DNA of 39,464 nt from NCBI GenBank assembly GCA_017431515.1, contig JAFRKV010000053.1:1-39464 (forward strand). The letters are read 5' to 3'. The translations under genes and the position numbers were made by a program. Positions 20,485 through 34,344 of the stretch are shown piece after piece. A model generated the notes under the pieces. It was not told the origin of the DNA. It worked only from the letters and a program-made list of their open reading frames with translations, and searched no databases. The stretch's first letter is position 1; each line of letters opens with the position of its first letter. Source of the DNA: Lachnospiraceae bacterium. Lineage in GTDB: Bacteria; Bacillota; Clostridia; Lachnospirales; Lachnospiraceae.

Positions 20485-22080
20485 CTACCTGTCCCATTTC
20501 TCGCTCAATGCATTGATCTGATCCGCAAACTTCGCCAGTTCCTTGTTGGGGATGCCTTCGTTCCTCCGGATGACCTCCATGAGGCGTTTTCCCGCCGCAA
20601 GAAGCCGCGCAAAGACATTGGAGCTCGCTTTCTCGGAAGGCTTTCTCTGCCTTTTCTCATGGTTGCCGACCTTGATCATCATACCGGTCGCCAGATCAAA
20701 AAGATCCCCGCTGTAAGGCGCGTAAGCGTCATATCCAAGGCCGTTCAAGTGGGTTGCGAAGGCCTCGCAGGTGGTGTCATCTCCATGCACCACAAACACT
20801 TTCTTCGGCTTCTGCTCCATGGCGGAAAGCCATGCGCTCAGATGATCCCGGTCCGCATGTCCGCTCATTCCCGGGAGCTGCTTGATCTCCGCACATACTT
20901 CGATGGTCTCGCCGAAAAGCCGCACCTCCTTCGCGCCGGAAAGAAGCGTATTGCCCAAAGTCCCCGGCACCTGAAAGCCCACGAAGAGGATCGTGCTCTC
21001 CGGCCGCCAGAGATTGTGCTTCAAATGATGCCGGATCCGACCCGCTTCGCACATGCCCGACGCAGAAATGATCACAACCGGTTTTTTCAGGAAATTGATC
21101 GCTATGGATTCCTCGCTGGTGATTGCGGTATGCAGGCCGCGGAAACGAATGGGGTTGATCCCCTTTGCAAGGAGGGAAAGCGCTTCCTCATCAAAGCACT
21201 CTTCGTCATTGTTTTGGAAGATATTGGTGGCCTCCACCGCCAGAGGACTGTCGATATAGACCTCAAAATCCTGATATTCCGGCAGCAACTGCTCGCTCTT
21301 GATCCGTCTCAGATAATAGAGCATTTCCTGGGTGCGTCCCACGGAAAAAGCGGGAATCACCAGATTGCCGCCCCGCAGGAACGTGGAGCGGATCACATCG
21401 GCCAGCTCCTCCGCGTAATCCGGGGCAAGATTGTGCAGCCGGTCTCCGTAGGTGGATTCGATCACTACATAATCCGCGCCGGGAAGCTGCGCCGGGTCTT
21501 TGATCAGCGGACGCTGCCCGTTACCTAAGTCTCCGGAAAAGATGATTTTGGTTTCTTCCCCGTCCTCCTGCACAAAAAACTCGATGGACGCGGAACCGAG
21601 AAGATGCCCCGCATCGGAAAACCGCGCCTTCAGGGTATCATCAATCGTCAAAAGCTCTCCGTACCGGCAGGGCTCAAACAGACGCAGCACTCCCGCCACA
21701 TCGGAAAGATCATAGATCGGGGTGACCTCCGCCCTTCCGGAACGCTTCGCTTTGCGGTTTTTCCAGTCCGCTTCCTGAATCTGGATGTGAGCGGAATCCC
21801 GCAGCATGATCTCGCAGAGTTCGCAGGTCGCATGGGTCGCATAGATCTTCCCCCGAAAGCCGTGGCTGTATAATAACGGCAGCAAGCCCGAATGATCGAT
21901 ATGGGCATGGGTGATAAAGACATAGTCGATGGATGCCGCATTCACAGGAATGTGCTGGCTCTCATAGAGATCCGGCCCCTGCTCCATCCCGCAGTCCACG
22001 ATCATGGATCTGTCCCCGAATTTCATATAATGACAGCTGCCTGTCACCTCATGCGCTGCGCCCAAAAATTCCAGAAGCAT
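20485..22080 (-). CDS. MBL-fold beta-CASP metallo-hydrolase with RNA-specificity domain
   Basis: 531-aa protein of the CPSF-73/RNase J-like branch. The zinc site is ITHAHIDHSG (HxHxDH, about 55-64), with further metal ligands in the SDAGHLLGSA region and the GDLGN loop. The beta-CASP insert follows. SASGMCEAGRIRHHL and the C-terminal GMSGHADRDHLSAWL with its late histidines are typical of the RMMBL/RNA-specificity part. It probably acts as a cytoplasmic RNA endo- or exonuclease. It heads a three-gene string with the small acidic protein and argS. GGGGG lies before the ATG. A promoter is not obvious; the structured repeat at 22112-22247 lies directly upstream. Confidence 0.88.
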   Translation of the reverse strand: MLLEFLGAAHEVTGSCHYMKFGDRSMIVDCGMEQGPDLYESQHIPVNAASIDYVFITHAHIDHSGLLPLLYSHGFRGKIYATHATCELCEIMLRDSAHIQIQEADWKNRKAKRSGRAEVTPIYDLSDVAGVLRLFEPCRYGELLTIDDTLKARFSDAGHLLGSASIEFFVQEDGEETKIIFSGDLGNGQRPLIKDPAQLPGADYVVIESTYGDRLHNLAPDYAEELADVIRSTFLRGGNLVIPAFSVGRTQEMLYYLRRIKSEQLLPEYQDFEVYIDSPLAVEATNIFQNNDEECFDEEALSLLAKGINPIRFRGLHTAITSEESIAINFLKKPVVIISASGMCEAGRIRHHLKHNLWRPESTILFVGFQVPGTLGNTLLSGAKEVRLFGETIEVCAEIKQLPGMSGHADRDHLSAWLSAMEQKPKKVFVVHGDDTTCEAFATHLNGLGYDAYAPYSGDLFDLATGMMIKVGNHEKRQRKPSEKASSNVFARLLAAGKRLMEVIRRNEGIPNKELAKFADQINALSEKWDR

Positions 22081-22111
22081 TTCGTCCCCCTGTGAAATGA
22101 TGTTAAGATGT

Positions 22112-22247
22112 TAAGGTCAAAAGGCACATGTCACGAAGTGACATTGTGGCCTTTGCGCAAGAATCCGGTCAGACAAGCCAGCTTGTCTGCACGGATTTCT
22201 GCGCAAAGTGCACATGCGATTTCATCGCATGTACACTTTTGACCTTA
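22112..22247. repeat. Cloverleaf-like structured repeat, copy A
   Basis: 136 nt with a perfect 12-bp outer stem (22112-22123 / 22236-22247) enclosing three hairpins that abut each other. Arm 1: 22125-22134 / 22138-22148 with a GAA loop. Arm 2: 22151-22208, a long two-part stem whose tip pairs 22170-22178 with 22181-22189. Arm 3: 22209-22235 with a TTC loop. It matches copy B (32241-32415) in layout, and the central arms have equal length. It lies 75 nt after the ftsZ stop and 32 nt before the metallo-hydrolase start. Orientation is undetermined. Confidence 0.85.
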
Positions 22248-22273
22248 CCATTTTGCCCTTACCATCATGAAAT

Positions 22274-22304
22274 ACAAGCCGGGACGCCCAACGCCCCGGC
22301 TTGT
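22274..22304 (-). terminator. Possible terminator hairpin after ftsZ
   Basis: Perfect 10-bp GC-rich stem (22274-22283 / 22295-22304) with an 11-nt loop, 18 nt downstream of the ftsZ stop. The downstream minus-strand tract has only a short T stretch, so it may be a weak terminator or an RNA-stabilising hairpin. Confidence 0.5.
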
Positions 22305-22321
22305 CTCATGCATTGTCCAAA

Positions 22322-23593
22322 TTATTTTCTCGTGTTCCGCAGAAAGTCCGGAATCTTGATGTCCTTTTCCGGGATATTGCTGACCGGTCTCCCGGGATTG
22401 TTCAGGTTGGAATTGAAGATATCCTGGGGCTCCGGCTGCTTCGGCTGTACCGGTGTCTGTACCGGAGTGCCGCCGGGCTGCGTATTGGAAAGGGATTTCT
22501 GCTGCAATGCCGCTGCCTGTGCCTGGGTCTGCGCGAAGATATCCTTCTGTGCGGCAGTCGTCGGAGTCGCGGTGCGGGTGATGCCCTGGGTGGTATTCAA
22601 TCCGCTGTAACGCATCATGCCCGGAATATCGCTGCGGGTCGATCTCTCATCAAGGCCGGTGGCAATGACAGTGATCTTGATCTTATCCTTCATCGTGTCA
22701 TCTTCTCTTGCACCGAAGACAACCTCCACATTCTCCCCTGTCAACTGGGTGACATATTCCGCAGCTGCGCTTGCATCATTCAGCGCCACATCACCGGTGA
22801 CATTGAGGATCACATGGCTTGCGCCGTTGATGGTCGTCTCAAGCAGCGGACTGTTGACCGCCAGCTGTACCGCTTCCAGAGCCTTCTCATCGCCCTCTGC
22901 GATACCGATGCCGATATGGGCGATCCCTTTGTCTTTCATGACATTCTGCACATCCGCAAAATCAAGGTTAATCATTGCCGGAATGTTGATCAGGTCTGTA
23001 ATGCCGTGTACCGCCTGCTGCAGCACTTCATCCGCCTTTGCAAGCGCATCCGCCATGGAGGTGCGGCGGTCTACAATCTCAAGAAGCTTATCATTCGGGA
23101 TCACGATCAGCGTATCCACGCTCTCTTTCAGCTTTTCGATCCCGGCAAGGGCATTGGTCATGCGCGCCTTTGCCTCAAACTTAAAGGGCTTCGTCACAAC
23201 GCCGACGGTCAGAATCCCCTGCTCTTTTGCGATCTTTGCGATCACAGGCGCTGCACCGGTACCGGTGCCGCCGCCCATGCCGCAGGTGACAAACACCATA
23301 TCCGCGCCTTTGATGGCTGCATTCAACTCCTCCGCGCTCTCTTCTGCGGACTTCTCGCCAATCTCCGGTCTCGCTCCTGCGCCGAGCCCTTTCGTAATCT
23401 TTTCACCAATCTGAATCAATGTGGGAGCCTTGCAAAGCATCAAATCCTGCTTATCCGTATTGACTCCGATATACTCTACCCCTCCGATGTTCTCATCGAT
23501 CATACGGTTTACCGCATTATTCCCGGCGCCGCCTACCCCAAGCACAATGATCTTGGCGGCTTTATCCGTCTCTGTTGTCTTAATCTCAAGCAA
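22322..23593 (-). CDS. ftsZ: Cell division protein FtsZ
   Basis: 423-aa tubulin-like GTPase that forms the Z-ring at mid-cell. [15 protein letters not shown] and the tubulin signature [15 protein letters not shown] (about residue 105) are present, with the T7-loop region NLDFADVQ. A Gln/Pro/Thr-rich linker (about 330-410) ends in the conserved C-terminal peptide [10 protein letters not shown], the docking site for FtsA/SepF/EzrA-type partners. I place the start at a TTG (23593): AAGGAGG lies 7 nt before it and the product starts at the normal position. A longer in-frame ATG at 23644 has no such site. The last gene of the dcw cluster, it also has its own promoter at 23671-23699. No ftsA is present. 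Confidence 0.97.
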
Positions 23594-23670
23594 GGTAGTT
23601 CCTCCTTCTTTCTGCGCTTCCCGCGCTCTATTCTCTCTCCTCAAATGAACCTATTCAGCCACATAGGTAT

Positions 23671-23699
23671 ACTATACTTTTTTTCACGAAAATAATCAA
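23671..23699 (-). promoter_or_regulatory. ftsZ promoter
   Basis: On the minus strand TTGATT (23694-23699), 17-bp spacer, TATAGT (23671-23676), in the 142-nt gap between ftsQ and the ftsZ TTG start. It allows ftsZ expression independent of the upstream cluster. Confidence 0.65.
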
Positions 23700-23735
23700 T
23701 CCCTTTTTACCGCGACATGTGACTTTTCATCGGTG

Positions 23736-24482
23736 TCACTGCATCCTCTCAAACGTGACATCCGTGGTATCCTCCGTCCAGGTTTCCAGATGCAGTGTCC
23801 CTGCCATCCCGTCGATCTGGGGCAGGATCTTCTCCAGCCGCACCAGTTTTTCCGTCAGGTTGTCCTCGCTCCCCAGTTTCACCGTAATGGGTCCGAACAC
23901 CACGCTCATATTGCCGCTTCCGTCATAGACGATGCCGTCGGCATGAAGGTTGTATTTTCCCAGATTCTGGGTCAGGGTCAGGAGCGTCCGCAGCGTCTTT
24001 TCCGACAGATCCAGTTTTTCATACACCACCGCGTTTTCGCAGGGCAGACCCGAGATCTGCGGCACGCCCTCGATCTGCTTGGTGCTGATCTCGATGACGA
24101 ATCCGTCCTTGTCAAAATAAATGAACTGCCCCGTATTCTCATCCGTCAGATACCCGATGGGTCCCTTTTCGTACACCAGCACCGACAGTTTTCTCGGGCT
24201 TTTCATGTCCACCGTCATCGTGTCAATGAAAGGCATCGCCTCTGTTTTTTTGAAACGGTATTTGAAATACACATAGAGCGTATTCCAGCTGTAGCGGTCA
24301 TTCTGCACCCACTCCCGGATGCTCTCATCGTCGTAAAGTTCATTCCCTTCGATCTCCACCTCCCCCACGGTGCAGACCGTGACACAGAAAAAACCAGTCA
24401 GCACCGCAAACAGAAGGATCGACAAAAACACGATCCAGCGGATCTTTCTATTCTTTTTTTCACGTTCCGTTTGATAGACCAT
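23736..24482 (-). CDS. ftsQ: Cell division protein FtsQ/DivIB
   Basis: 248-aa bitopic division protein. A basic cytoplasmic N-terminus (about 1-13) is followed by one membrane helix (about 14-36, WIVFLSILLFAVLTGFFCV) and an extracellular POTRA domain beginning VGEVEIEGNELYDDESI. The rest is the beta domain. It scaffolds FtsL and the FtsW/PBP synthase at the septum. The ATG is 4 nt after the ftsW stop with GAGGG upstream, so the two are coupled. In many Firmicutes murG lies before this gene; here it does not. Confidence 0.88.
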   Translation of the reverse strand: MVYQTEREKKNRKIRWIVFLSILLFAVLTGFFCVTVCTVGEVEIEGNELYDDESIREWVQNDRYSWNTLYVYFKYRFKKTEAMPFIDTMTVDMKSPRKLSVLVYEKGPIGYLTDENTGQFIYFDKDGFVIEISTKQIEGVPQISGLPCENAVVYEKLDLSEKTLRTLLTLTQNLGKYNLHADGIVYDGSGNMSVVFGPITVKLGSEDNLTEKLVRLEKILPQIDGMAGTLHLETWTEDTTDVTFERMQ

Positions 24483-24486
24483 ATAT

Positions 24487-25599
24487 TCAGCCCTCGAACA
24501 CGATCCCGCGGGACACGGAAAGCGCCAGTCCCATCTCCGCCAGCAGAATCGAGATGGACGTGCCTCCGTAACTGATAAAGGGCAGGATGATACCGGTGTT
24601 CGGGATCGTATTCGTCACCACCGCGATATTCAGCAGCACCTGCAGGGCAATGTGGGCAAGGATCCCCACCACAATCAGTGTCCCGTAAAGATCCGGTGCG
24701 TTGTTCGCAATGATCATAAAACGCCACAGCATCAGGATAAACATCAGGATCACGCAGACCGCACCAAACAGTCCCAGTTCCTCGCAGATGATCGTAAAGA
24801 TCATGTCATTCTGCGCTTCCGGCACAAAGCCCAGCTTTTGCATGCTCTCTCCCAGACCTTTGCCGAATACCCCGCCGGAGCCGATGGCATAAAGCCCCTG
24901 CAGCGTCTGGTAACCTCTTTCGTAGTCCTCCGGGTGCAGCCAGACGCGGATCCGCTCGACGCGGTAACTGGCCACGAGCAGGAAAGCCCCCATGGCGCCG
25001 GCCGCGATGACAATGATCCACAAAAAGTGGGAGTACTTCGGGCTTGCCACAAACAGCATCACAAACGCAATCCCGGCGATGATGATCCCCGTGCTCAGGT
25101 TCTCATAAGCTACCACCAGAAACAGTGGCGCGATCCGAAGCAGGATCTTCGAAATGTTTTTCAGCGAATCCAGATGCTTATCATGCCGGCAGATCACCGA
25201 GGCCAGATACAGAATGACGGCGATCTTGGCCAGCTCCGACGGCTGGAAGGAAACACTTCCGAAGTAGATCCAGCGCTTGGAGCCGTTGATGTCACGCCCG
25301 ATAAAAAGCACGGCGATACAAAGCACGATGGCAAGCAGATAGATGGCAAAGGAAAGTTTGTCCCAGACCCGGTACGGGATCAACGTCGTGATCAGCATCC
25401 CGACGATCCCCACCGCCACAGCGATCAGTTGTTTCTTCAGGAAATAGGCATTGTCTCCGAACTTCAGCTGGCCGTTATAGGAGGACGTGCTGTACAGCAT
25501 GACTAGGCCGAAAAAAACCACGGTCAGAATGATGATCAGAAGGCTGTAATCGAAATATTTAATCTTCTTTTGTTTTTTTACTTCGTTCCGCTCATCCAT
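24487..25599 (-). CDS. ftsW: Septal peptidoglycan polymerase FtsW (SEDS family)
   Basis: 370-aa polytopic SEDS protein with about ten membrane helices. The family signature QNDMIFTIICEELGLFGA lies near residue 260, and PFISYGGTSI is in the C-terminal region. The early FGLVMLYSTSS segment is also typical. It polymerises lipid II at the septum together with the class B PBP encoded upstream in the cluster. FtsW and its sporulation paralogue SpoVE are hard to separate by sequence; dcw location supports FtsW. The start overlaps the murD end by 8 nt. Confidence 0.92.
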   Translation of the reverse strand: MDERNEVKKQKKIKYFDYSLLIIILTVVFFGLVMLYSTSSYNGQLKFGDNAYFLKKQLIAVAVGIVGMLITTLIPYRVWDKLSFAIYLLAIVLCIAVLFIGRDINGSKRWIYFGSVSFQPSELAKIAVILYLASVICRHDKHLDSLKNISKILLRIAPLFLVVAYENLSTGIIIAGIAFVMLFVASPKYSHFLWIIVIAAGAMGAFLLVASYRVERIRVWLHPEDYERGYQTLQGLYAIGSGGVFGKGLGESMQKLGFVPEAQNDMIFTIICEELGLFGAVCVILMFILMLWRFMIIANNAPDLYGTLIVVGILAHIALQVLLNIAVVTNTIPNTGIILPFISYGGTSISILLAEMGLALSVSRGIVFEG

Positions 25600-26962
25600 G
25601 GGATTTCTGAAGCTCCATCACGAGCTCTTTGAACTGTTTTCCCCGTTCCTCGAAATTCACGAACATCCCCCAGCTGGCACAGGCCGGCGACAGCAAAACC
25701 GCTTCTCCGGAAGAAGCGCACCCGGCTGCCCGATGCACCGCGTCGGCAAAGGTCTCGACTTTCTCATAATCCAAGAAGCCGCATGCTTCACAGGCTGCCG
25801 CGATCTTGTCCGCGGTCTGCCCGAGGAGGATCAGTTTCTTCACCTTGCCTGGGAAGGTGTGGATCCACTCCTCGTAGGTGGCATTCTTGTCATATCCGCC
25901 GCCGATCAGAACCGTCCGGCGTTCCATGGCTTCCACCGCTTTGATCGCCGCATCCGGATTTGTCCCTTTGGAATCGTTATAGTAGCGCACCCCGTCGATC
26001 TCCGCCACGAATTCGATCCTGTGCTCCACTGCTTTGAAGGATGTCAAGGCCGTGATGATCTTTTCCCGCGGCACCCCCATGGCACCGGCGATGGCCGCAG
26101 CCGCCATGGCATTCTCATAATTATGTTTCCCCAGGATCTGGAGTTTTGCAACCTCGATCAACGGCTCTGCTTTCCCCGCAGACGCCGTATATATCACACC
26201 ATTTTCAAAAAATAATCCGTCATTTAATTTTTTCTCCGAAGAGAACCAGACCACGTTACAGGGCAGCGTCTCCCCAAACGCCCGCAGCACCGGGTCCTCA
26301 TAATTCAGCACGACGGTATCATTCTTATCCTGCCGCGCTGTAATCCGTTCCTTTGCAGCGATATAGTTTTCCATGGTGTGATGCCGGTCCAGATGATCCG
26401 GCGTGATGTTCAGAATCGCGGATACCTCCGGATGAAAACGATCCGTAGTCTCCAGCTGATAGGAACTGATCTCGGCCACCGTAACGGTCTCCTCCGTCAT
26501 GGAACAAGCCTCTTCCGTATAGGGAATCCCGATATTGCCCACCACGCGGACATCCCCGAAATGAGCAGCCAGCAGCTCTCCCGTCAGCGCTGTCGTGGTG
26601 GTTTTCCCGTTCGTACCTGTGATCGCGGCGAGTCTCCCCACGCCGCAGACATACGCCAGTTCAATTTCTCCGGTAATGGGGATCTGCTGCTTTCTAAGAA
26701 GCTGTACCTCCGGCTTTTCCGGTGACACCCCCGGGCTTAAGACCGCAAGATCCAGTCCCCGGATCTTTTCCTCCGTCAGCGCACCGAGGACGATTTCTGC
26801 GTCCCGGAAGGCCGCAGAACGGCTTTTTACCTCGTCCACCGACAGCTTGTCGTTCCCGTCATAAATCAGAAGCAACGCACCCTTTTTCTGCAGCAGCTCC
26901 GCGGCGGCGATGCCGCTCTTTCCGGTGCCGAATACCAGCACCTTTTTCTGTTGAAATTCCAT
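25592..26962 (-). CDS. murD: UDP-N-acetylmuramoylalanine-D-glutamate ligase
   Basis: 456-aa Mur ligase adding D-Glu to UDP-MurNAc-L-Ala in the cytoplasm. The N-terminal Rossmann-like domain begins KKVLVFGTGKSGIAAAELL. The ATP-binding loop is ITGTNGKTTTTAL (about 113-125). LNITPDHLDRH and NDSKGTNPDAAIKAVE are the Mur-ligase central and C-terminal signatures. Length is normal. AAAGGA lies 9 nt before the ATG. It follows mraY by 13 nt and overlaps ftsW. No murC, murE, murF or murG is in the window. Confidence 0.96.
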   Translation of the reverse strand: MEFQQKKVLVFGTGKSGIAAAELLQKKGALLLIYDGNDKLSVDEVKSRSAAFRDAEIVLGALTEEKIRGLDLAVLSPGVSPEKPEVQLLRKQQIPITGEIELAYVCGVGRLAAITGTNGKTTTTALTGELLAAHFGDVRVVGNIGIPYTEEACSMTEETVTVAEISSYQLETTDRFHPEVSAILNITPDHLDRHHTMENYIAAKERITARQDKNDTVVLNYEDPVLRAFGETLPCNVVWFSSEKKLNDGLFFENGVIYTASAGKAEPLIEVAKLQILGKHNYENAMAAAAIAGAMGVPREKIITALTSFKAVEHRIEFVAEIDGVRYYNDSKGTNPDAAIKAVEAMERRTVLIGGGYDKNATYEEWIHTFPGKVKKLILLGQTADKIAAACEACGFLDYEKVETFADAVHRAAGCASSGEAVLLSPACASWGMFVNFEERGKQFKELVMELQKSHG

Positions 26963-26975
26963 TTTCTTTTTTCCT

Positions 26976-27929
26976 TTACCAGACGATCCCCAGCAGCCCC
27001 ACCGTGCAAAGCAGGACCGTAATCACCATAAACACAGCAACCACACGGGTCTCCGACCAGCCGCCCTTTTCAAAATGATGATGGATCGGCGCCATGCGGA
27101 ATATCCGTTTTCCGTGGCTTATTTTAAAATAACTCACCTGCAGGATCACGGAAAGCACCTCGATGAGATAGAGCCCACCCACGATGGCAATAAAAATCGG
27201 CAGATTCATCGTATAGGCGATGCCTGCCACAAAGCCGCCCAGCGCCAGTGATCCCGTATCTCCCATAAATACCTTGGCCGGGTAGGCATTGAAAAGCAGA
27301 AAGCCCATGAGCGCCCCTGCAACTGCGCCTGCCGCGACTTCCACCTGGGCGCCGAGAAAGATGGATGCCACTGCAAAAAACAGCGCCACAGGAATCGTGA
27401 CACTGGAGGACAATCCGTCCAGACCGTCCGTGAAGTTGACCCCGTTGACGGTGCCGATCACGGCAATATAGAGAATCGGGATCGCGACCCAGCCGATGTC
27501 TATCATCGCGCCGGAGAAAGGAATGCGGATCAGCAGTGAAATATCCGAAAAGAATAGAAGATAGCCTGTAAACTCCGTTGTCACGAGAATCTCCAGCAGC
27601 ATCTTCTGCCAGGCACGAAGCCCGTCGGGACGGCGGAGCACCACCTTTAAGAAATCATCCAGAAAGCCGATGAGGCCAAATCCCAGCGTCAGCACAAGAA
27701 CGGGAATGATCCGCGGGCACTTCCCCGCGAAAAAGACTGACGCCACAAAGATCGCGATCAGGATCATGATCCCGCCCATGGTCGGTGTCCCGTTCTTGCT
27801 GTCATGATTTAGGACTTTACGCTCCGTCTGGCCGATTTTCAGCCTCCGCAGTGCCGGGATAACAAATGGTCCGAGGCACGCTACGATCGCAAAGGCGATC
27901 CACATTGCCAGCATGGTTTCTTTGATCAT
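26976..27929 (-). CDS. mraY: Phospho-N-acetylmuramoyl-pentapeptide transferase
   Basis: 317-aa integral membrane enzyme that transfers phospho-MurNAc-pentapeptide to undecaprenyl phosphate, making lipid I. About ten hydrophobic helices are present. Key motifs are KNGTPTMGGI, GFLDDFLKV (the acidic DD pair) and NGVNFTDGLDGL, with NLPIFIAIVGGLYLIEVLSV and a histidine motif FRMAPIHHHFE toward the end. Slightly shorter than the usual 320-360 aa. GGAGAAG lies before the ATG. Its own promoter sits at 27986-28014, overlapping the end of the PBP gene. Confidence 0.96.
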   Translation of the reverse strand: MIKETMLAMWIAFAIVACLGPFVIPALRRLKIGQTERKVLNHDSKNGTPTMGGIMILIAIFVASVFFAGKCPRIIPVLVLTLGFGLIGFLDDFLKVVLRRPDGLRAWQKMLLEILVTTEFTGYLLFFSDISLLIRIPFSGAMIDIGWVAIPILYIAVIGTVNGVNFTDGLDGLSSSVTIPVALFFAVASIFLGAQVEVAAGAVAGALMGFLLFNAYPAKVFMGDTGSLALGGFVAGIAYTMNLPIFIAIVGGLYLIEVLSVILQVSYFKISHGKRIFRMAPIHHHFEKGGWSETRVVAVFMVITVLLCTVGLLGIVW

Positions 27930-27985
27930 ATTCTTCTCCGTTGTTTCCGGGAAAAGGCTTTCCCTGATTATCTCTCAACGTGAAG

Positions 27986-28014
27986 ATTATACGGTATTTT
28001 CGGCTTTACTGCAA
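27986..28014 (-). promoter_or_regulatory. Internal promoter before mraY
   Basis: On the minus strand TTGCAG (28009-28014), 17-bp spacer, TATAAT (27986-27991), about 57 nt upstream of the mraY ATG. The -35 box lies inside the last codons of the PBP gene. It would drive mraY-murD-ftsW-ftsQ separately from mraZ-rsmH-ftsL-pbp. Confidence 0.65.
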
Positions 28015-30120
28015 GGGAATGTCCGCCACGGGAATATCCACCACAGGGATATCCGTCACGGGCAGGACATCCGTCGGGATCGTCATCAGATCTGTGGCAG
28101 GCGCATCCGGCGCGGACTCCTCCGGAGCAGGCTCTGCCACCGGTGCTTCCGGAACCGCCACATCCACGGCAGGTTCTGCCGGAGCCGCTGCCGCTGCTGC
28201 CGCTGCCGCCGCTTCCGCTTCTGCCTCGGCCTGTTCCGCAGCGATGGCTGCTTCGTATTCCTCCGGCGTCATTTCGTCCGGATAGATATTAAGATACGGC
28301 AGAATATCCGTAAAGATCTCTTTTGCAATGCCCATGGCAAAGGTGCTGTGATACTGCTCTTCCGCGTTAGGTTCGTCCACCACCACATAAACCACAGCCC
28401 GGGGATGATCCGCCGGAATATAGCCGATGAAGGACACCAGATAGTTGACGCCGTCACGGGGCACTTTCTGCGCCGTGCCGGTCTTGCCGCCCATGGAATA
28501 GCCGGTGACCTTGGCGCTTTTTCCGGTGCCGCCGCCGCTGACCGTCGCGTAAAGATAACTCTTGATCATCTCGCTGGTGCTCTCGGAAACTGTCTGCTTG
28601 ATCAGCTTTTTCCCGAATTCCTCCACAGTATTACCGTCGGCATCCGTGATCTTTTTCATCACATGGGGCTGATAATAATACCCGCCGTTGATCAGCGAGG
28701 AAAAGGCGCTCGCCATCTGGATCATCGTGCAGTTGTAGTTCTGTCCGAAGGAATTCGTGGCCAGATCGATCGTCGTCATGTCGTCGAGGCTGTAGATCAG
28801 ACTGTCCGTCCGCGCTTCGCCGGGAAGGTCGATGTTGGTCTTCAGCCCGAATCCGAAAATATGCTGATATTTCGTGAAGTTCTCCTTACCAATGACATAA
28901 GACATCTGCATCAGCGCATCGTTGCAGGAATTCATGATCGCCTGCTCGATGGTTTCCAGCCCGTGTCCGTGCCGGCTGACGCAGTGAATCTTGTAGCCGG
29001 AAATCTCTTCATAGCCGTCGCAGACGTAGGTCTCATTACCGCTCAATGTCCCGGTCTCCAGCCCGCAGGCCACCGTAAAGGGCTTGCTCGTGGATCCCGG
29101 CTCATAGGTGGCGGTCAGGCAGTAATTCTGCCAAAGACCGTTTAAGAAATTCAGTTTATCATCATCCGTCATCAGCGCCTGCTGCTCCGGCGTGAAATAG
29201 GCCGACAGATCCCAGGGATTGGAGGAGTCATAGTTCGGATACTGCGCCATGGCAAGGATCTCGCCGTTATTCGGATCCATCACCAGCGCCGCGGTATGGG
29301 TACTGCCCGCGCCCTCTCTCGCCACGTTTGCGTTTTCCACCTGGAAGTTCTGGATCTTCTCCTCCACCACGCCCTGGATATTCGCATCCATGGTCAGCAC
29401 CACATGATTGCCGTCCACTGCCTCTTTGATGGTTTTTTCAAAATTGTTGTCCGCGTTCAGGTAGCCGTATTCCCTGCCGTTCACGCCGTTTAAGACGCGG
29501 TTGTAGGAATTTTCCACGCCGGCCATGCCGACGTTGCCCGACGCGATAAACCCCACGAGAGAGCTTCCCATGGAGCCGTAGGGGTATTGCCGTTCGTATT
29601 CCTTTTCAAACCAGACCGCATTGCTGAGATCCGGATAGTTCTCATTGTCGTCCTGCATCTCCACAAAAGGCTGGACTTCGCTGTAGGGGAGTTTCTTCAA
29701 AAGAACCGCATAGCGGCTGTCCGGATTTTCGGAGAGCCTTCTGCGCACATCATTCATGTCCAGCTCCGGAAAGCACTGTGCCAGCGCCGCAAGGGTCGGC
29801 TCCACGGTCTCCTCCTTTGCCAGCAGCACATTGCAGTCTAAGATCACGTTGTAAACGTCCGTGCTGGTGGCAAGCACCGTCCCCTTCCGGTCCGTGATAT
29901 CACCGCGCTGATAGGGGATCGTCTTGCTGTCATACTCCTGCTGGGACAGCACGATCTTCTGATACTTCTCGCTGCTGGTATGCTCAATATAAGTTAACCG
30001 CACGATCAAACCAATTAAAGCCAGTGATACGATTGCAAATAGTATCACCAGCTTTTTTTGCATCCCGCGATTGATCCGTTTTTTCTCGCGTTTCTTTTCC
30101 CGTTTCTGTTTCGCTGCCAC
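28006..30120 (-). CDS. Class B penicillin-binding protein (FtsI/SpoVD-like) with an Ala/Pro-rich tail
   Basis: 704-aa septal transpeptidase. A basic N-terminus and one membrane helix (about 25-47, KLVILFAIVSLALIGLIV) precede the dimerisation domain and the transpeptidase domain. The domain has GSTSKP (SxxK), the SxN motif in MNSCNDAL and the KTG motif in GGKTGTAQK. The C-terminus, from about residue 620, is not a PASTA domain. It is a low-complexity Ala/Glu then Pro/Val/Asp-rich tail ending ADIPLQ. The start is GTG (30120) with AAGGAG 7 nt before it. It works with FtsW. FtsI versus SpoVD cannot be settled; position in the cluster favours the division enzyme. Confidence 0.9.
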   Translation of the reverse strand: MAAKQKREKKREKKRINRGMQKKLVILFAIVSLALIGLIVRLTYIEHTSSEKYQKIVLSQQEYDSKTIPYQRGDITDRKGTVLATSTDVYNVILDCNVLLAKEETVEPTLAALAQCFPELDMNDVRRRLSENPDSRYAVLLKKLPYSEVQPFVEMQDDNENYPDLSNAVWFEKEYERQYPYGSMGSSLVGFIASGNVGMAGVENSYNRVLNGVNGREYGYLNADNNFEKTIKEAVDGNHVVLTMDANIQGVVEEKIQNFQVENANVAREGAGSTHTAALVMDPNNGEILAMAQYPNYDSSNPWDLSAYFTPEQQALMTDDDKLNFLNGLWQNYCLTATYEPGSTSKPFTVACGLETGTLSGNETYVCDGYEEISGYKIHCVSRHGHGLETIEQAIMNSCNDALMQMSYVIGKENFTKYQHIFGFGLKTNIDLPGEARTDSLIYSLDDMTTIDLATNSFGQNYNCTMIQMASAFSSLINGGYYYQPHVMKKITDADGNTVEEFGKKLIKQTVSESTSEMIKSYLYATVSGGGTGKSAKVTGYSMGGKTGTAQKVPRDGVNYLVSFIGYIPADHPRAVVYVVVDEPNAEEQYHSTFAMGIAKEIFTDILPYLNIYPDEMTPEEYEAAIAAEQAEAEAEAAAAAAAAAAPAEPAVDVAVPEAPVAEPAPEESAPDAPATDLMTIPTDVLPVTDIPVVDIPVADIPLQ

Positions 30121-30131
30121 GACGGCGCTCC

Positions 30132-30653
30132 TTAGTCCGGAATATCGGCGTACTGATTCATGTAATCTGCATTATCCACTGAATAGTATACCACTTGATC
30201 CGATCCTGCATAGTGCATTCCGAGATCCGTGATCGCAACCTGTTTGACATAGCGGAGATCCGTCGTGGTGTTCAGGCGTTTCGCCGCCGCGCTGTTGTCC
30301 GCCCGGACATCCTCCAGCTGGCTTTCCAGCTTGGAAATATTTTTCAGATGCGCGGTCAGATCCGACTGCAGTTTGATATAGCCGGCCGAAATCACAGCTG
30401 TGATAATGCCCGCAACCGTCAGAAACGTCACATATCCTCTGCCGAAGGAGAGGGCTCTCATCTGGTTCCGGCGAATGGCTTTCTCCTGGCGCGCCCTCTG
30501 CTCTTCCTCGATCCGCTGCGCTTCCAGTTCTCTTCTGACCTGCGCCTGCCGCTGCCGCTTGTAGGCATCATAATCCGGCGCCTCCCGAAGTTGTCTGGCC
30601 GTATTACCCTCTACCGCATACGTGCTTCTTCCGGTTCTTGCTGCTGCTTTCAT
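30132..30653 (-). CDS. ftsL: FtsL-like division protein
   Basis: 173-aa protein in the position where ftsL lies in dcw clusters. A long charged cytoplasmic N-terminal part (about 1-95, rich in Arg, Gln, Glu) precedes one membrane helix (about 97-118, VTFLTVAGIITAVISAGYI). An extracellular coiled-coil helix follows (HLKNISKLESQLEDVRADN), typical of FtsL/DivIC. It is longer than most FtsL (about 120 aa) because of the N-terminal part. It probably bridges FtsQ and the FtsW/PBP pair. AGAGGAG lies 8 nt before the ATG. Sequence conservation is low in this family, so the assignment depends partly on context. Confidence 0.75.
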   Translation of the reverse strand: MKAAARTGRSTYAVEGNTARQLREAPDYDAYKRQRQAQVRRELEAQRIEEEQRARQEKAIRRNQMRALSFGRGYVTFLTVAGIITAVISAGYIKLQSDLTAHLKNISKLESQLEDVRADNSAAAKRLNTTTDLRYVKQVAITDLGMHYAGSDQVVYYSVDNADYMNQYADIPD

Positions 30654-30674
30654 AACTGAAACTCCTCTGCAATC

Positions 30675-31622
30675 TTAAAATTTGACATCCTTTTCAAATA
30701 TTCTAAGCTTTGCGCTTTTACTCCTCGGATTTTCTTCCTGCTCTGTTTCCCCCGGCAGGATCGGTTTTTTGTTGACTGCGAATCCCTTTGGCTTCCTGCC
30801 GCATACACAGACCGGAAAATTGCTCGGGCAGGTGCAGGGATGTTCGTTTCTTGCGAAGGCTTCTTTGACGATGCGATCCTCCAGCGAATGGAAGGTGATG
30901 ATCGAAAGCCTGCCGCCGTCTTTCAAAAGATCGATCATCTCGTCGATGCTGTCCGACAACACGGTTAACTCCTGATTGACCTCGATCCGTATCGCCTGAA
31001 ACGTCCGTTTCGCGGGATGCCCGCCGCCCTTCTGCGCTTTCATCGGCATTGCGGATCTGATGATCTGTACCAGCTCGCCTGTAGTTTTGATCGGCTTTTC
31101 TTCCCGGGCGATCCGGATATTTCTCGCGATGCTTTTTGCGAACCGCTCCTCGCCGTAGTCTCTGAGGATTTGAAAAATCGCGTCCTCCGGATACTCATTC
31201 ACAACCCTCTCTGCCGTCAGTTCCCGGCTTTGGTCCATCCGCATGTCCAGAGGCGCGTCCTCTTCCCGGTAGGTGAACCCCCGTTCTTTGGTGTCCAGTT
31301 GAAAAGAGGAAACCCCGAGGTCCAGTAAAATCCCGTCCACCTGCGGAATGGAGAGGTCCTTTAAGATCGAGCCCATCTCCCGGTAATTGCCTTTGACGAT
31401 GGTCACCTGGCTCTGCCAGGGCCTCAGCCGCTCTTCTGCCGCGCGGATCGCATCCGCGTCCTGATCGATCCCGATCAGCCTTCCGTTCTTTTTCAGTCTC
31501 CGTACCACGCCTTCCGCGTGTCCGGCTCCGCCCAGTGTCCCGTCCACGTAGATCCCGGCCGGGTTGATCTTCATCTGTTCCAGTACTTCCTCATAAAGCA
31601 CCGAGGTATGTTCGAATTTCAT
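30675..31622 (-). CDS. rsmH: 16S rRNA (cytosine1402-N4)-methyltransferase
   Basis: 315-aa SAM-dependent methyltransferase (also called mraW) modifying C1402 of 16S rRNA. The N-terminus is [13 protein letters not shown], followed by the SAM-binding [25 protein letters not shown] and the C-terminal [13 protein letters not shown] with a [13 protein letters not shown] cysteine pair are characteristic. Length is normal. It sits between mraZ (14 nt upstream) and ftsL, the standard order. Confidence 0.97.
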
Positions 31623-31636
31623 GGGCGCCTGCTCTT

Positions 31637-32068
31637 TTAAATGCTGAGTCCGTATTCCGCCATCTTCTCCGCGATGGAATCCATGTCGCCGAAGCCGCTT
31701 TCTTTCTCCCAGCGCTCCTTGCTCCAGATCTCCACTTTGTTCATCACACCGGCGGATACAAGGTCTTTTGTAATCCCCGCATAATCACGGAGCACCTGCG
31801 GAATCAGTGCCCGCCCCTGTTTATCGATCTCACAGGTCGCTGCTCCCGCAAAGAAGAATCGTGCGAATTCTCTTGCTTCTTTCTTGATCAGCGGCACTTC
31901 CTGAAATTGTTCTTCGATCCGTTCCCACTCTTCCTTCGGGTAAAGGTAAAGGCATTTATCCAGGCCCTTGGTTGCGACGAATTCATCGCCAAGCTGTTCC
32001 CTGAATTTGGAAGGAACGATCACCCGTCCCTTCTGGTCGACGGTATGATTGTATTCGCCCATGAACAT
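31637..32068 (-). CDS. mraZ: Transcriptional regulator MraZ
   Basis: 143-aa protein with two AbrB/SpoVT-type DNA-binding repeats: [19 protein letters not shown] near the start and [18 protein letters not shown] in the middle. MraZ oligomers bind direct repeats upstream of the dcw operon and regulate it. The start has GAGGAAC 7 nt before the ATG at 32068; a second ATG two codons in is possible. Five 4-bp repeats spaced about 10 bp lie in its leader (32085-32129), as expected for autoregulation. Confidence 0.95.
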
Positions 32069-32084
32069 AAGATTGTTCCTCGCT

Positions 32085-32129
32085 CCACTTCACACCATTT
32101 TCTACCACTTTCCTCCACCAACTAACCAC
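32085..32129 (-). promoter_or_regulatory. MraZ-box-like operator array
   Basis: On the minus strand, GTGG-type tetramers (one is ATGG) occur at 32126-32129, 32115-32118, 32105-32108, 32095-32098 and 32085-32088, that is with periods of 11, 10, 10 and 10 bp. They start right after the -10 box and cover the expected transcript start. Known MraZ boxes are direct repeats with the same kind of core and about 10-bp spacing. Confidence 0.75.
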
Positions 32130-32158
32130 ATTGTACCCCCGTCTTGTAAAAAATGCAA
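32130..32158 (-). promoter_or_regulatory. mraZ (dcw cluster) promoter
   Basis: On the minus strand TTGCAT (32153-32158), 17-bp spacer, TACAAT (32130-32135), about 60 nt before the mraZ ATG. The -35 box is right beside the T-run of the preceding terminator. Confidence 0.75.
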
Positions 32159-32159
32159 C

Positions 32160-32196
32160 AAAAAATGCCGAAAAATTGAAAAATTTTCGGCATTTT
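32160..32196 (-). terminator. Terminator between thrS and mraZ
   Basis: 13-bp stem (32162-32174 / 32184-32196) with an A-rich loop. In minus-strand RNA a run of six U follows (complement of 32160-32165). The A/T-rich stem base on both sides means it could also work in the plus direction. It ends transcription arriving from thrS and the structured repeat copy B. Confidence 0.7.
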
Positions 32197-32240
32197 CTAC
32201 ATATAGTGGTGTGAGATTTTGAAACAACTAAATGTAGTTG

Positions 32241-32415
32241 ACGCTGAGGCAAAAAGTAGGGCTGGGGCATTAGTCACATGGCACATATGTGCCATGTGGA
32301 ATTTGCACAAAGGTTCGGCCGGACGTGCTAGCACGTCCGCGCGAACTTCTGTGCAAATCGCATATGCGGCGTAGCCGCATTTCGCTAATGCTCCAGCCCC
32401 TTTTTACCTCAGCGT
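32241..32415. repeat. Cloverleaf-like structured repeat, copy B
   Basis: 175 nt. The outer stem has about 30 pairs in three segments: 32241-32249 / 32407-32415, 32251-32255 / 32401-32405, and 32259-32273 / 32385-32399 with one G-T pair. Arm 1 is a perfect 24-nt palindrome (32275-32298). Arm 2 is a 17-bp stem (32301-32317 / 32342-32358, one mismatch) topped by a perfect 20-nt palindrome (32320-32339). Arm 3 is 32359-32384 with core 32364-32370 / 32374-32380. It lies 8 nt after the thrS stop. See copy A at 22112-22247. Confidence 0.88.
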
Positions 32416-32422
32416 CATCTCA

Positions 32423-34225
32423 CTATCCTTGATACAATTCCTGGGAGCGCTCCCGGTTCATTCTGACACATTCCTCCACAAAAGCATCCACCGGCAGGTC
32501 ATGCAACTGGGTCTTCTGGCCGCGGATCGTGACGGACACGGTGCCATCCTCCTTCTCCCGGTCTCCGATCACGAGGATGTAAGGATCCTTCATGGTCTTA
32601 AAACACTTGATCTTTTCATTCATGTTCTTGTCCGCGTAGTCTGCTTCGACGCGGATCCCTGCGGCGGTCAGCTTTTCCTCCACCCGTTTCGCATAGGCGT
32701 TGTGCTCTGTACGGATCGGCACGATGGCCACCTGATACGGCGACAGCCAGAACGGGAAATCCCCCTTGTAGTTCTCGATCAGGATGCCGATGAACCGTTC
32801 CAGGGAACCGAAGATCGCGCGGTGAATCACCACCGGCTCCTTCTGCATGCCGTCGCTGTCCTGATAGGTCAGTTCAAAATTATGGGGAAGCTGGAAATCC
32901 AGCTGGATGGTCCCGCACTGCCATTCCCGGCCCAGAGCGTCCTTCATCTGGAGGTCGATCTTCGGCCCGTAAAAAGCGCCGTCTCCCTCGTTGATCTCAT
33001 AATTCCCTTCCCCGTATTTTTTGTCCAGGATATTGGAAAGGGCTTTCTCCGCACGATTCCACGCCTCGATGTCACCCATGAAATCCTCAGGTCTGGTGGA
33101 AAACTCCGCGCGATAGGTGACGCCGAAGGTGCGGTAGATCTCGTCCGCGATCTCCATAATGTCGCCGATCTCTTCCTCGATCTGGCTCTCCATCACAAAG
33201 GTATGGTCGTCATCCTGCCGGAAGGACTGCACGCGGAACAGGCCGTTCAGTTGTCCGCTTTTTTCTTTCCGGTGCACCACATCCAGCTCGTTGTAACGGA
33301 TGGGGAGCTCCCGGTAGGAATGCATCGTGCGTTTATAGGTCAGCATCGCGTTCGGGCAGTTCATCGGCTTCGCCGCCATCATGTCGTCATCGGAAAGATG
33401 CACCTCCGCAGCGCCGTTCTCATCCCATTTTTCGTTCAGGTCGGGAACGATAAACATATTGTTCTGATAATGTGCCCAATGTCCGCTGATGAGCCAGAGT
33501 TTTTTGTTGTTGATCACCGGCGCAGATATCTCCTGATACCCGTGCCGTTCATGAATCTCGCGCCAGAATTTGATCAGGGTCTGATACAGTCTCCACCCTC
33601 TCGGCAGCCAGTAGGGCATCCCGGGCGCGGTCTCCTGGAACATGAAAAGATCCAGCTTCGGCCCAAGCTTTTTATGGTCGCGTTCCATTGCTTCCCGGAT
33701 CAGATTCAGATGCGCCTTCAATTCTTCCTTCGTGGGGAACGCATACACATAAATCCGCTGCATGGAGTCGCGCTTCGCATCGCCTCTCCAGTATGCGCCG
33801 GAAGCGGACTTCACCTGAAACGCCGCCGAAAGCAGCTCCATGGAGTTCTCCACATGAGGCCCTCTGCAAAGGTCCACAAAATCCTCCCCTGTATAATAGA
33901 TGGAAATCACTTCTCCCTCCGGAAGGTCCTGAATCAGCTCCGTTTTGAACTTCTGTCCCTCAAAGAGCTGTAATGCTTCCTCTCTGGAGATTTCCTTTCT
34001 GATCCAATCCTCTTTCCGCTTCATAATCTCCCGCATCTTGTCCTCGATCACGGGATAATCCTCCTCCGTCACCGGCCGCGGAAGCACGAAATCATAATAC
34101 AGTCCGTCGTCGATCTGCGGACCGATGGCATACTGTACTTCGTCCTTTCCGAAAATCTCAATCACAGCCTTGGCGAGAATGTGCGCCAGAGAATGTCGGT
34201 AAACACCGAGCAATTCTTCCTTCAT
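32423..34225 (-). CDS. thrS: Threonyl-tRNA synthetase
   Basis: 600-aa class II synthetase charging tRNA-Thr. The editing-domain zinc-type motif region contains RHSLAHILAKAVIEI and the catalytic core has motif 1/2/3 segments (FRVQSFRQDDDHTF and the late HRAIFGSLERFIGIL). The catalytic zinc ligands Cys and His occur in AKPMNCPNAML and later. The N-terminal TGS domain usual in this enzyme is absent; the protein begins close to the editing domain, hence 600 aa instead of about 640. I chose the ATG at 34225, which has GGGAG 7-8 nt upstream; the frame opens further up but that part reads through hairpin DNA. No T-box was found in the short leader. Confidence 0.95.
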   Translation of the reverse strand: MKEELLGVYRHSLAHILAKAVIEIFGKDEVQYAIGPQIDDGLYYDFVLPRPVTEEDYPVIEDKMREIMKRKEDWIRKEISREEALQLFEGQKFKTELIQDLPEGEVISIYYTGEDFVDLCRGPHVENSMELLSAAFQVKSASGAYWRGDAKRDSMQRIYVYAFPTKEELKAHLNLIREAMERDHKKLGPKLDLFMFQETAPGMPYWLPRGWRLYQTLIKFWREIHERHGYQEISAPVINNKKLWLISGHWAHYQNNMFIVPDLNEKWDENGAAEVHLSDDDMMAAKPMNCPNAMLTYKRTMHSYRELPIRYNELDVVHRKEKSGQLNGLFRVQSFRQDDDHTFVMESQIEEEIGDIMEIADEIYRTFGVTYRAEFSTRPEDFMGDIEAWNRAEKALSNILDKKYGEGNYEINEGDGAFYGPKIDLQMKDALGREWQCGTIQLDFQLPHNFELTYQDSDGMQKEPVVIHRAIFGSLERFIGILIENYKGDFPFWLSPYQVAIVPIRTEHNAYAKRVEEKLTAAGIRVEADYADKNMNEKIKCFKTMKDPYILVIGDREKEDGTVSVTIRGQKTQLHDLPVDAFVEECVRMNRERSQELYQG

Positions 34226-34243
34226 TTGGTTGCTCCCTTCTTC

Positions 34244-34288
34244 GGCATGAGGTGTCGCCAACGAAGTTGGCGACGGAGTCCTGATGCC
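34244..34288. repeat. 45-nt interrupted palindrome in the thrS leader
   Basis: Inner perfect 9-bp stem (34254-34262 / 34266-34274) with a GAA loop, and outer pairs 34250-34252 / 34280-34282 and 34244-34248 / 34284-34288. It lies between the terminator of the preceding gene and the thrS start. Loop and style resemble the arms of the cloverleaf repeats, but no long sequence match is seen. Confidence 0.6.
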
Positions 34289-34310
34289 ACTTTCTGTTTT
34301 CCCTATCTTC

Positions 34311-34344
34311 AAAAAAAATCCCCCGCGTCCTAAGACGCAGGGGA
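34311..34344 (-). terminator. Rho-independent terminator after the SCP2/H1-like gene
   Basis: 11-bp GC-rich stem (34319-34329 / 34334-34344) with a 4-nt loop, then eight U in minus-strand RNA (complement of 34311-34318). One plus-strand C-A mismatch becomes a G-U pair on the minus strand, supporting the direction. It lies 15 nt after the stop codon. Confidence 0.85.

Follow-up and report, generated by a model that had tools for sequence, protein, structure and literature searches.

Palindromic intergenic repeats that resemble miniature inverted-repeat transposable elements (MITEs) and are able to fold include the bcr1-type repeats of Bacillus cereus and ERIC. REP repeats are often found 3' of genes and are linked to the RAYT transposase, and invertons are phase-variable segments located between inverted repeats. 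The element described here occurs in two copies, A and B, in a window of 39,464 nucleotides, which is one whole contig (JAFRKV010000053.1) of the draft genome of a Lachnospiraceae bacterium (assembly GCA_017431515.1, hereafter G000; 2.35 Mb, 62 contigs, 81.8% complete). Both copies represent a non-autonomous, MITE-like DNA element of about 155-195 bp that folds into a cloverleaf. It is dispersed, inserts with its own outer stem at hairpin-free sites, and is flanked by 7-bp duplications in a sister lineage. The analysis suggests that the family consists of short mobile DNA elements of rumen bacteria, and that DNA copying rather than an RNA function keeps the fold.

REP repeats are described as palindromic and intergenic, with GTAG/CGTC tags (PMC3733652). 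A study on template switching between inverted-repeat arms gives arm homogenisation and spacer inversion as the two marks of the process (PMC8604942), and refers to previous studies of such short repeats in proteobacteria. Another report states that hairpins can arise and be maintained through template switching, with multi-base compensated changes, and argues that stably structured loops are unlikely to be inverted (PMC8794818).

Results

Copy A (22099..22266, + strand, with GATG and CATC as its outer ends) and copy B (32240..32416, + strand) were reported in the original prediction to share an outer stem and three hairpins, and both computed folds bear this out. The fold of A (22105-22255) had an energy of -82.5 kcal/mol, against -37.15 ± 3.46 for shuffled sequences (z -13.1), and that of B (32235-32420) reached -121 kcal/mol against -58.25 ± 4.03 (z -15.6). 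The central arms, of 56 nt each (22152..22207 in A, 32302..32357 in B, both + strand), were identical at 39 of 56 positions, as claimed, and all six pairs said to be compensated proved to be Watson-Crick in A and in B with both bases changed (A versus B, in order: GC/AT, AT/GC, CG/TA, AT/GC, AT/GC and AT/TA). Covariation was then evaluated statistically in 37 aligned copies of G000. Here 96.8% of the cells were paired, compared with 86.3% when the 3' letters were shuffled, and 30 of 55 pairs showed a double-sided change (shuffles 17.7; none of 500 as high), a comparison in which kinship among the sequences alone can push values above the shuffles. A and B are two subtypes of one architecture and not the two members of a two-member family. 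Full-length relatives of A are about 73-87% identical to it; B, the divergent subtype, has a single close relative in G000, which is truncated (92% over 74 nt).

A search of the host genome for further copies, which had been proposed as a check, was carried out with a covariance model of 133 positions built from the 37 copies. It returned 90 rows corresponding to 48 distinct places, partial copies included, of which 42 were matched on both strands and 6 weakly on one only; several are truncated or internally deleted. Copy A is one of these places, and B was matched at 32263-32395 (E 3.8e-19). With A as blastn query 46 rows were obtained, the palindrome matching the reverse strand as well. The genus was represented by four genomes, G000 included: G003 (rumen, RUG12461) gave 56 rows, that is 28 places, G001 one place (46.8 bits), and G002 no model match. 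A scan of 299 genomes of the family at E 1e-6 gave three other matching genomes (G059, G179 and G243), and a scan of 392 genomes of the order gave one (G601), G000 being counted in both sets; stricter filters were used in these two scans, so misses are likely there. The fold was found in six genomes besides G000, partly with different sequences. A 36-base arm pattern occurred in 24 stretches of named genome contigs from the uncultured Lachnospiraceae RUG12461 (10), RUG14305 (13) and RUI241 (1). With one copy as query, no match at E 1e-5 was found among phage (50,697) or plasmid (72,556) records, and viral contigs did not match one arm pattern.

In order from the outside in, the element consists of a copy-specific outer stem, AAAAG/CTTTT, arm 1, the central arm and arm 3. 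In A, all on the + strand, the left outer stem is GATGTTAAGATGTTAAGGTC (22099..22118) and the right one GACCTTACCATTTTGCCCTTACCATC (22241..22266, by eye), and alignment together with the RNAalifold consensus places the hairpin of arm 1, with a GAA loop, at 22124..22150 and that of arm 3, with a TTC loop, at 22208..22236. B has a longer outer stem (32240-32273 with 32385-32416), whose outermost part, GACGCTGAGGCAAAAAG, is similar to GATGTTGAGGTCAAAAG. The loop of arm 1 was GAA in 52 of 61 copies and that of arm 3 TTC in 57 of 61, and the central arm was tipped by GCTAGC in 43 of 61. The left half resembles the complement of the right half, so that the element is close to symmetrical; being a near-symmetrical palindrome, with two hairpin-bearing terminal inverted repeats around a central hairpin, it can fold into the cloverleaf from either strand. 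The outer stems are copy-specific, yet paired in nearly every copy. Over all G000-G003 pairs the mean identity was 0.90 for arm 1, 0.88 for arm 3 and 0.42 for the outer stem, and the tips of arm 3 fall into few classes that are common to different copies.

Deletion derivatives keeping the outer stem and the ends were found in G000, G003 and G243, and several of them retain little else; at L031/L147 the core is complete in G000 and reduced to the outer stem in G003. Three copies from two species are longer, at 182-186 nt, and contain additional central-arm sequence (G000 C15:125332-125517, L041; G000 C15:101854-102039, L119; G003 C10:96740-96921, L077). Small insertions apparently matched on both arms were noticed by eye at L012/L075 and in copy A.

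Insertion was assessed at 19 sites compared between G000 and G003 (2 from shared stretches, 15 more G000 copies and 2 examined later). Ten were clean empty sites, nine of them empty in G003 and one (L138) in G000. Among the 15 further G000 copies, six had clean empty sites (A, B, L013, L020, L026 and L012:2987), seven were ambiguous (L015, L017, L027, L033, L035, L038 and L041), L031 was a deleted copy, and one side was missing at L029. In the case of A, the portion without counterpart in the empty G003 site (L155) was 22092-22268, and its left outer stem is missing there; no copy was present at the G003 site orthologous to B (L149). In all ten clean empty sites neither outer arm was found, the match being 6-7 of 10 bases where shuffle means were 6.2-6.7.

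Target-site duplications, the search for which had also been proposed, were detected in one genome. Both ends were recognised by pattern in 28 of the 81 copies given, and exact 6-7-bp duplications were present at 4 of these 28 end pairs (2000 permutations: mean 0.39, maximum 3). All four were among the 9 rows of G243, in which the duplications are 7-bp. Most copies of this genome have GATGTYGGGGTC ends, and most also share one outer-stem sequence; the outer 12 bp are largely divergent among the copies of G000 and G003. The duplications in G000 (A, L013 and L028) were read by eye only. For A the possible duplication is TGAAAT (22093-22098 and 22268-22273), which was absent from the pattern scoring because the pattern caught the inner GATG.

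An insertion sequence that shares its ends with the fold was found in G179. In this genome the fold lies inside TTGAGTTTCCSY ends, which are common to a 1.57-kb insertion sequence (L127, C11:148199-149768) with a 417-aa DDE_Tnp_1 transposase. The insertion sequence is IS4-like, the transposase scoring below the NCBIfam IS4 cut-offs. The 12-base TTGAGTTTCCSY pattern gave 67 matches in G179 versus 1 in the control, many of them single ends, and repeats of roughly 9-11 bp were seen by eye at the ends of the G179 copies. The transposase had no match in G000, G001, G003, G059 and G243, an empty answer that carries no weight.

A REP/RAYT system was also considered and is unsupported, no constant GTAG/CGTC tag being visible by eye in the 37-copy alignment. 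Y1_Tnp matches were found in G000, G003 and G243, and none in G179, which has the fold. Apart from two 12-base matches with 2 mismatches, neither end nor core sequence of the cloverleaf occurred in the four loci analysed (G000 C61:68923, L165; G243 C109:4467, L166; G003 C7:2, L167; G003 C21:7-228, L168). By eye the Y1_Tnp genes look IS200/IS605-like, one with a TnpB-like neighbour; the match at L168 is split, with an internal stop in one piece.

Fourteen copies occupy orthologous positions in G000 and G003, with flanks about 73-87% identical. At the inner 6 stem positions of these loci (84 pairs), 55 pairs were unchanged, 20 had both bases replaced but still paired, 6 showed a one-sided change, and 3 fell into none of these classes. 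When 8 stem positions were considered, 24 compensated changes were counted against a permuted mean of 3.7 (none of 5000 as high), and in the 7 loci with related central arms (42 pairs) 30 were unchanged, 8 compensated, 3 one-sided and 1 other. Transversion-type changes, which a single G-U intermediate cannot bridge, made up 14 of the 24. Mismatches in 61 copies amounted to 46 G.T and 47 A.C when two mostly unpaired positions were excluded, and to 81:74 when they were included. For 39 tandem copies read on the sense strand, 34 G-U and 25 A-C were counted, no significant excess (p 0.30), and the tRNAs available for calibration were too few (5 in 55 sources). This near parity would seem unlike a selected RNA, and the spectrum looks strand-symmetric.

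The core was found in opposite orientation at 10 of the 14 shared sites. For the ranking of partners, 25 of the 28 G003 places entered the alignment step and one was too long, which left 24; the last two G003 places were not shared with the compared G000 stretches. Partners were more alike than permuted pairs in the outer stem (0.464 versus 0.401, p 0.003) and in the central arm (0.743 versus 0.684, p 0.007), and weakly so in arms 1 and 3 (p 0.04). The central arm of the partner ranked 1-3 of 24 at 7 of the 14 sites (L010, L014, L022a, L022b, L023a, L025 and L032), and the whole core ranked first at four, namely L014, L022a and L023a, in the same orientation, and L025, reversed. At L025/L064 the outer stem was kept and the core was the best match of 24, yet inverted. 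Taken together, the two rankings give one clear in-place inversion (L025) and three compatible cases (L010, L022b and L032). At L037/L063 and L012/L075 a related outer stem encloses a reversed core of another lineage, suggesting exchange or heavy change of the core within a stem that was retained. The outer stems, too, look unrelated at L011, L016 and L023b, where independent insertion may have occurred. Where both orientation and lineage differ, the change of core may be due to re-insertion, inter-copy exchange, or inversion with heavy divergence. A separate inversion of the central arm, apart from arms 1 and 3, found no support, the reversed comparison being mostly no better.

At L019/L071 several hundred extra bases were seen beside the element in G003. 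A hairpin with the element's ends (L130, G000 C2:6746; L139, G003 C30:18224) lies in a 2.1-kb stretch that is 93% identical between the two genomes, compared with about 73-87% in the other flanks, perhaps owing to recent transfer or to strong conservation.

The position relative to genes was determined for 66 copies with a home-made codon-scoring gene caller: 44 lay between tandem genes, 12 were convergent, 6 divergent, 3 undetermined and 1 inside a called frame. As judged from the model ends, 34 of the 44 tandem copies started at most 30 nt after the upstream stop codon. The convergent to divergent ratio was 12:6, versus 7:19 in element-free gaps of at least 60 nt (p 0.014). The preference for the 3' side of genes may reflect selective filtering of a selfish element, or a function at 3' ends.

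In the window, A is placed between ftsZ (22322..23644, - strand; Pfam Tubulin 2.1e-52, FtsZ_C 2.5e-22), in whose 3' flank it lies, and a gene for a beta-CASP metallo-hydrolase of 531 aa (20485..22080, - strand; Pfam Beta-Casp 3e-39, RMMBL 1.9e-16), whose start codon and the model match of A are 32 nt apart. B lies between a thrS-like gene for a class II aminoacyl-tRNA synthetase (32423..34312, - strand; Pfam tRNA-synt_2b 2.3e-39, tRNA_SAD 3e-9) and mraZ (31637..32068, - strand; Pfam MraZ 7.5e-42). The stop of the thrS-like gene is 27 nt from the model match of B and about 6 nt from its outer stem.

Discussion

The explanation favoured here, with modest confidence, is that the A/B family is a MITE and that replication template switching homogenises its palindrome and sometimes inverts it. 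A DDE transposase would mobilise the element in trans, and after insertion the element would persist mostly 3' of genes. Its arms would stay complementary because template switching would transfer a mutation or a small insertion to the opposite arm, and because switching across the outer stem could invert the core in situ. Of the two marks, arm homogenisation is seen here in the 20 double versus 6 single changes, and spacer inversion is secure at one site only. Covariation would then be mainly a mutational product of a DNA palindrome, and by itself is no evidence for a functional RNA. The original prediction held that selection or a copying mechanism maintains the fold, either as RNA (a 3' UTR element) or as DNA (a MITE/REP-like cruciform). 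The DNA reading, as a MITE-like element whose fold is kept by copying, gains from the dispersed copies, the empty sites, the terminal repeats, the duplications in G243 and the near parity of G.T and A.C mismatches. The RNA reading, as a selected fold, receives no support from the pair spectrum; most copies between tandem genes are nonetheless directly 3' of a gene.

Several observations weigh against the template-switching explanation. No partner transposase was seen for the A-type ends: in the fragmented assemblies of G000, G003 and G243, inspection by eye gave no pair of facing GATGTYGRGGKCAAAAG ends 1-3 kb apart. The 10 reversed sites of 14 are not different from one half (p 0.18). Central arms are unrelated in 6 of the 10 reversed pairs, and L025 is the only reversed pair with whole-core rank 1, a rank held by 3 of the 4 pairs in the same orientation. 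Many of the flips may stem from independent insertions at one site or from the exchange of cores. Hairpin loops keep their orientation (GAA, TTC), though switching within small hairpins might flip them. The conservation of cores across copies and species, while outer stems diverge, is unexplained by neutral drift with template switching. Finally, the canonical strand opposes transcription in 31 of 44 tandem copies of G000 and G003 (p 0.0096), a bias that a symmetric mutational process does not predict.

That the hairpins are selected and act in transcript 3' ends, in termination or mRNA protection, is regarded as unlikely. Such a role would agree with the placement of tandem copies close behind stop codons, the enrichment of convergent gaps, the orientation bias (31:13) and the terminator-like character of arm 1 of A on the minus strand. 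Nevertheless, G-U is not clearly commoner than A-C even on the sense strand, the majority of double changes are of the transversion type, and orthologous sites in the sister species lack copies. In addition, Rfam 15 gave no match to a known structured RNA family at gathering thresholds in the whole window. With this result and the 48 places in the genome, neither of the refuting outcomes named in the original prediction occurred. It is also doubtful that selection acts on the cruciform or hairpin in the DNA, which would be a binding site for a host or transposase protein, with both strands mattering equally. Strand-symmetric mismatches, conserved cores with diverging outer stems and recurrence of the fold in other genomes would suit it, but it does not on its own explain matched insertions and whole-core reversal, and little beyond the outer stem and ends survives in several deletion derivatives.

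A site-specific recombinase, or inter-copy exchange, could flip or swap the core inside a retained outer stem, in the manner of an inverton-like cassette. The reversed cores of another lineage within related outer stems (L037/L063, L012/L075) and the arm 3 tip classes shared among copies speak for this, which is still considered quite unlikely: the outer stems vary by copy, so that AAAAGT/ACTTTT would be the only near-constant crossover sequence. More broadly, a DNA-structure-dependent process might, in Lachnospiraceae, flip or swap whole cores within co-evolving, locus-bound outer stems. The element would combine the properties of a MITE, an invertible segment and a self-correcting palindrome, its fold carried by unrelated transposon ends across genera; this proposal is tentative and judged improbable. 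Copy-specific outer stems that are paired in nearly every copy could also arise by insertion into pre-existing hairpins or by inverted copying of the target. However, one outer-stem sequence is common to most G243 copies, and for the ten sites tested this origin is refuted by the lack of both arms in every clean empty site, which renders it highly improbable overall.

When paired bases covary, this is commonly regarded as the strongest evidence that an RNA is functional. The present family shows strong covariation, with arms and orientation behaving much as template switching predicts, which calls for caution in searches that call new RNAs from covariation alone. With dozens of replicate palindromes, and with orthologous and empty sites known, the rates of arm homogenisation and core inversion become measurable.

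No described element of this form was recognised in literature searches, which does not prove its absence from print. The element is like bacterial MITEs in being short, non-coding and dispersed, in its terminal inverted repeats, empty sites and G243 target duplications, and in the G179 ends, which equal those of an IS4-like insertion sequence. It is unlike them in that one three-hairpin cloverleaf is found inside different end sequences, the outer repeats diverge yet stay complementary, and the core is reversed at shared sites. In contrast to REP repeats, the cloverleaf is longer, with end repeats and 7-bp duplications, and the Y1 transposase genes were found without an adjoining cloverleaf. 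It is similar to the bcr1-type repeats and ERIC as a palindromic, MITE-like, intergenic and foldable repeat; core reversal at shared sites is not known for either. The presence of the core in both orientations between inverted repeats is shared with invertons, here as a difference between species. With the palindromes attributed to template switching in PMC8604942 and PMC8794818, it has in common arm homogenisation, multi-base compensated changes and, clearly at one site, spacer inversion. Those cases were shown in yeast genes and in RNA genes, whereas here the palindrome belongs to a dispersed mobile element that can be followed at many orthologous sites.

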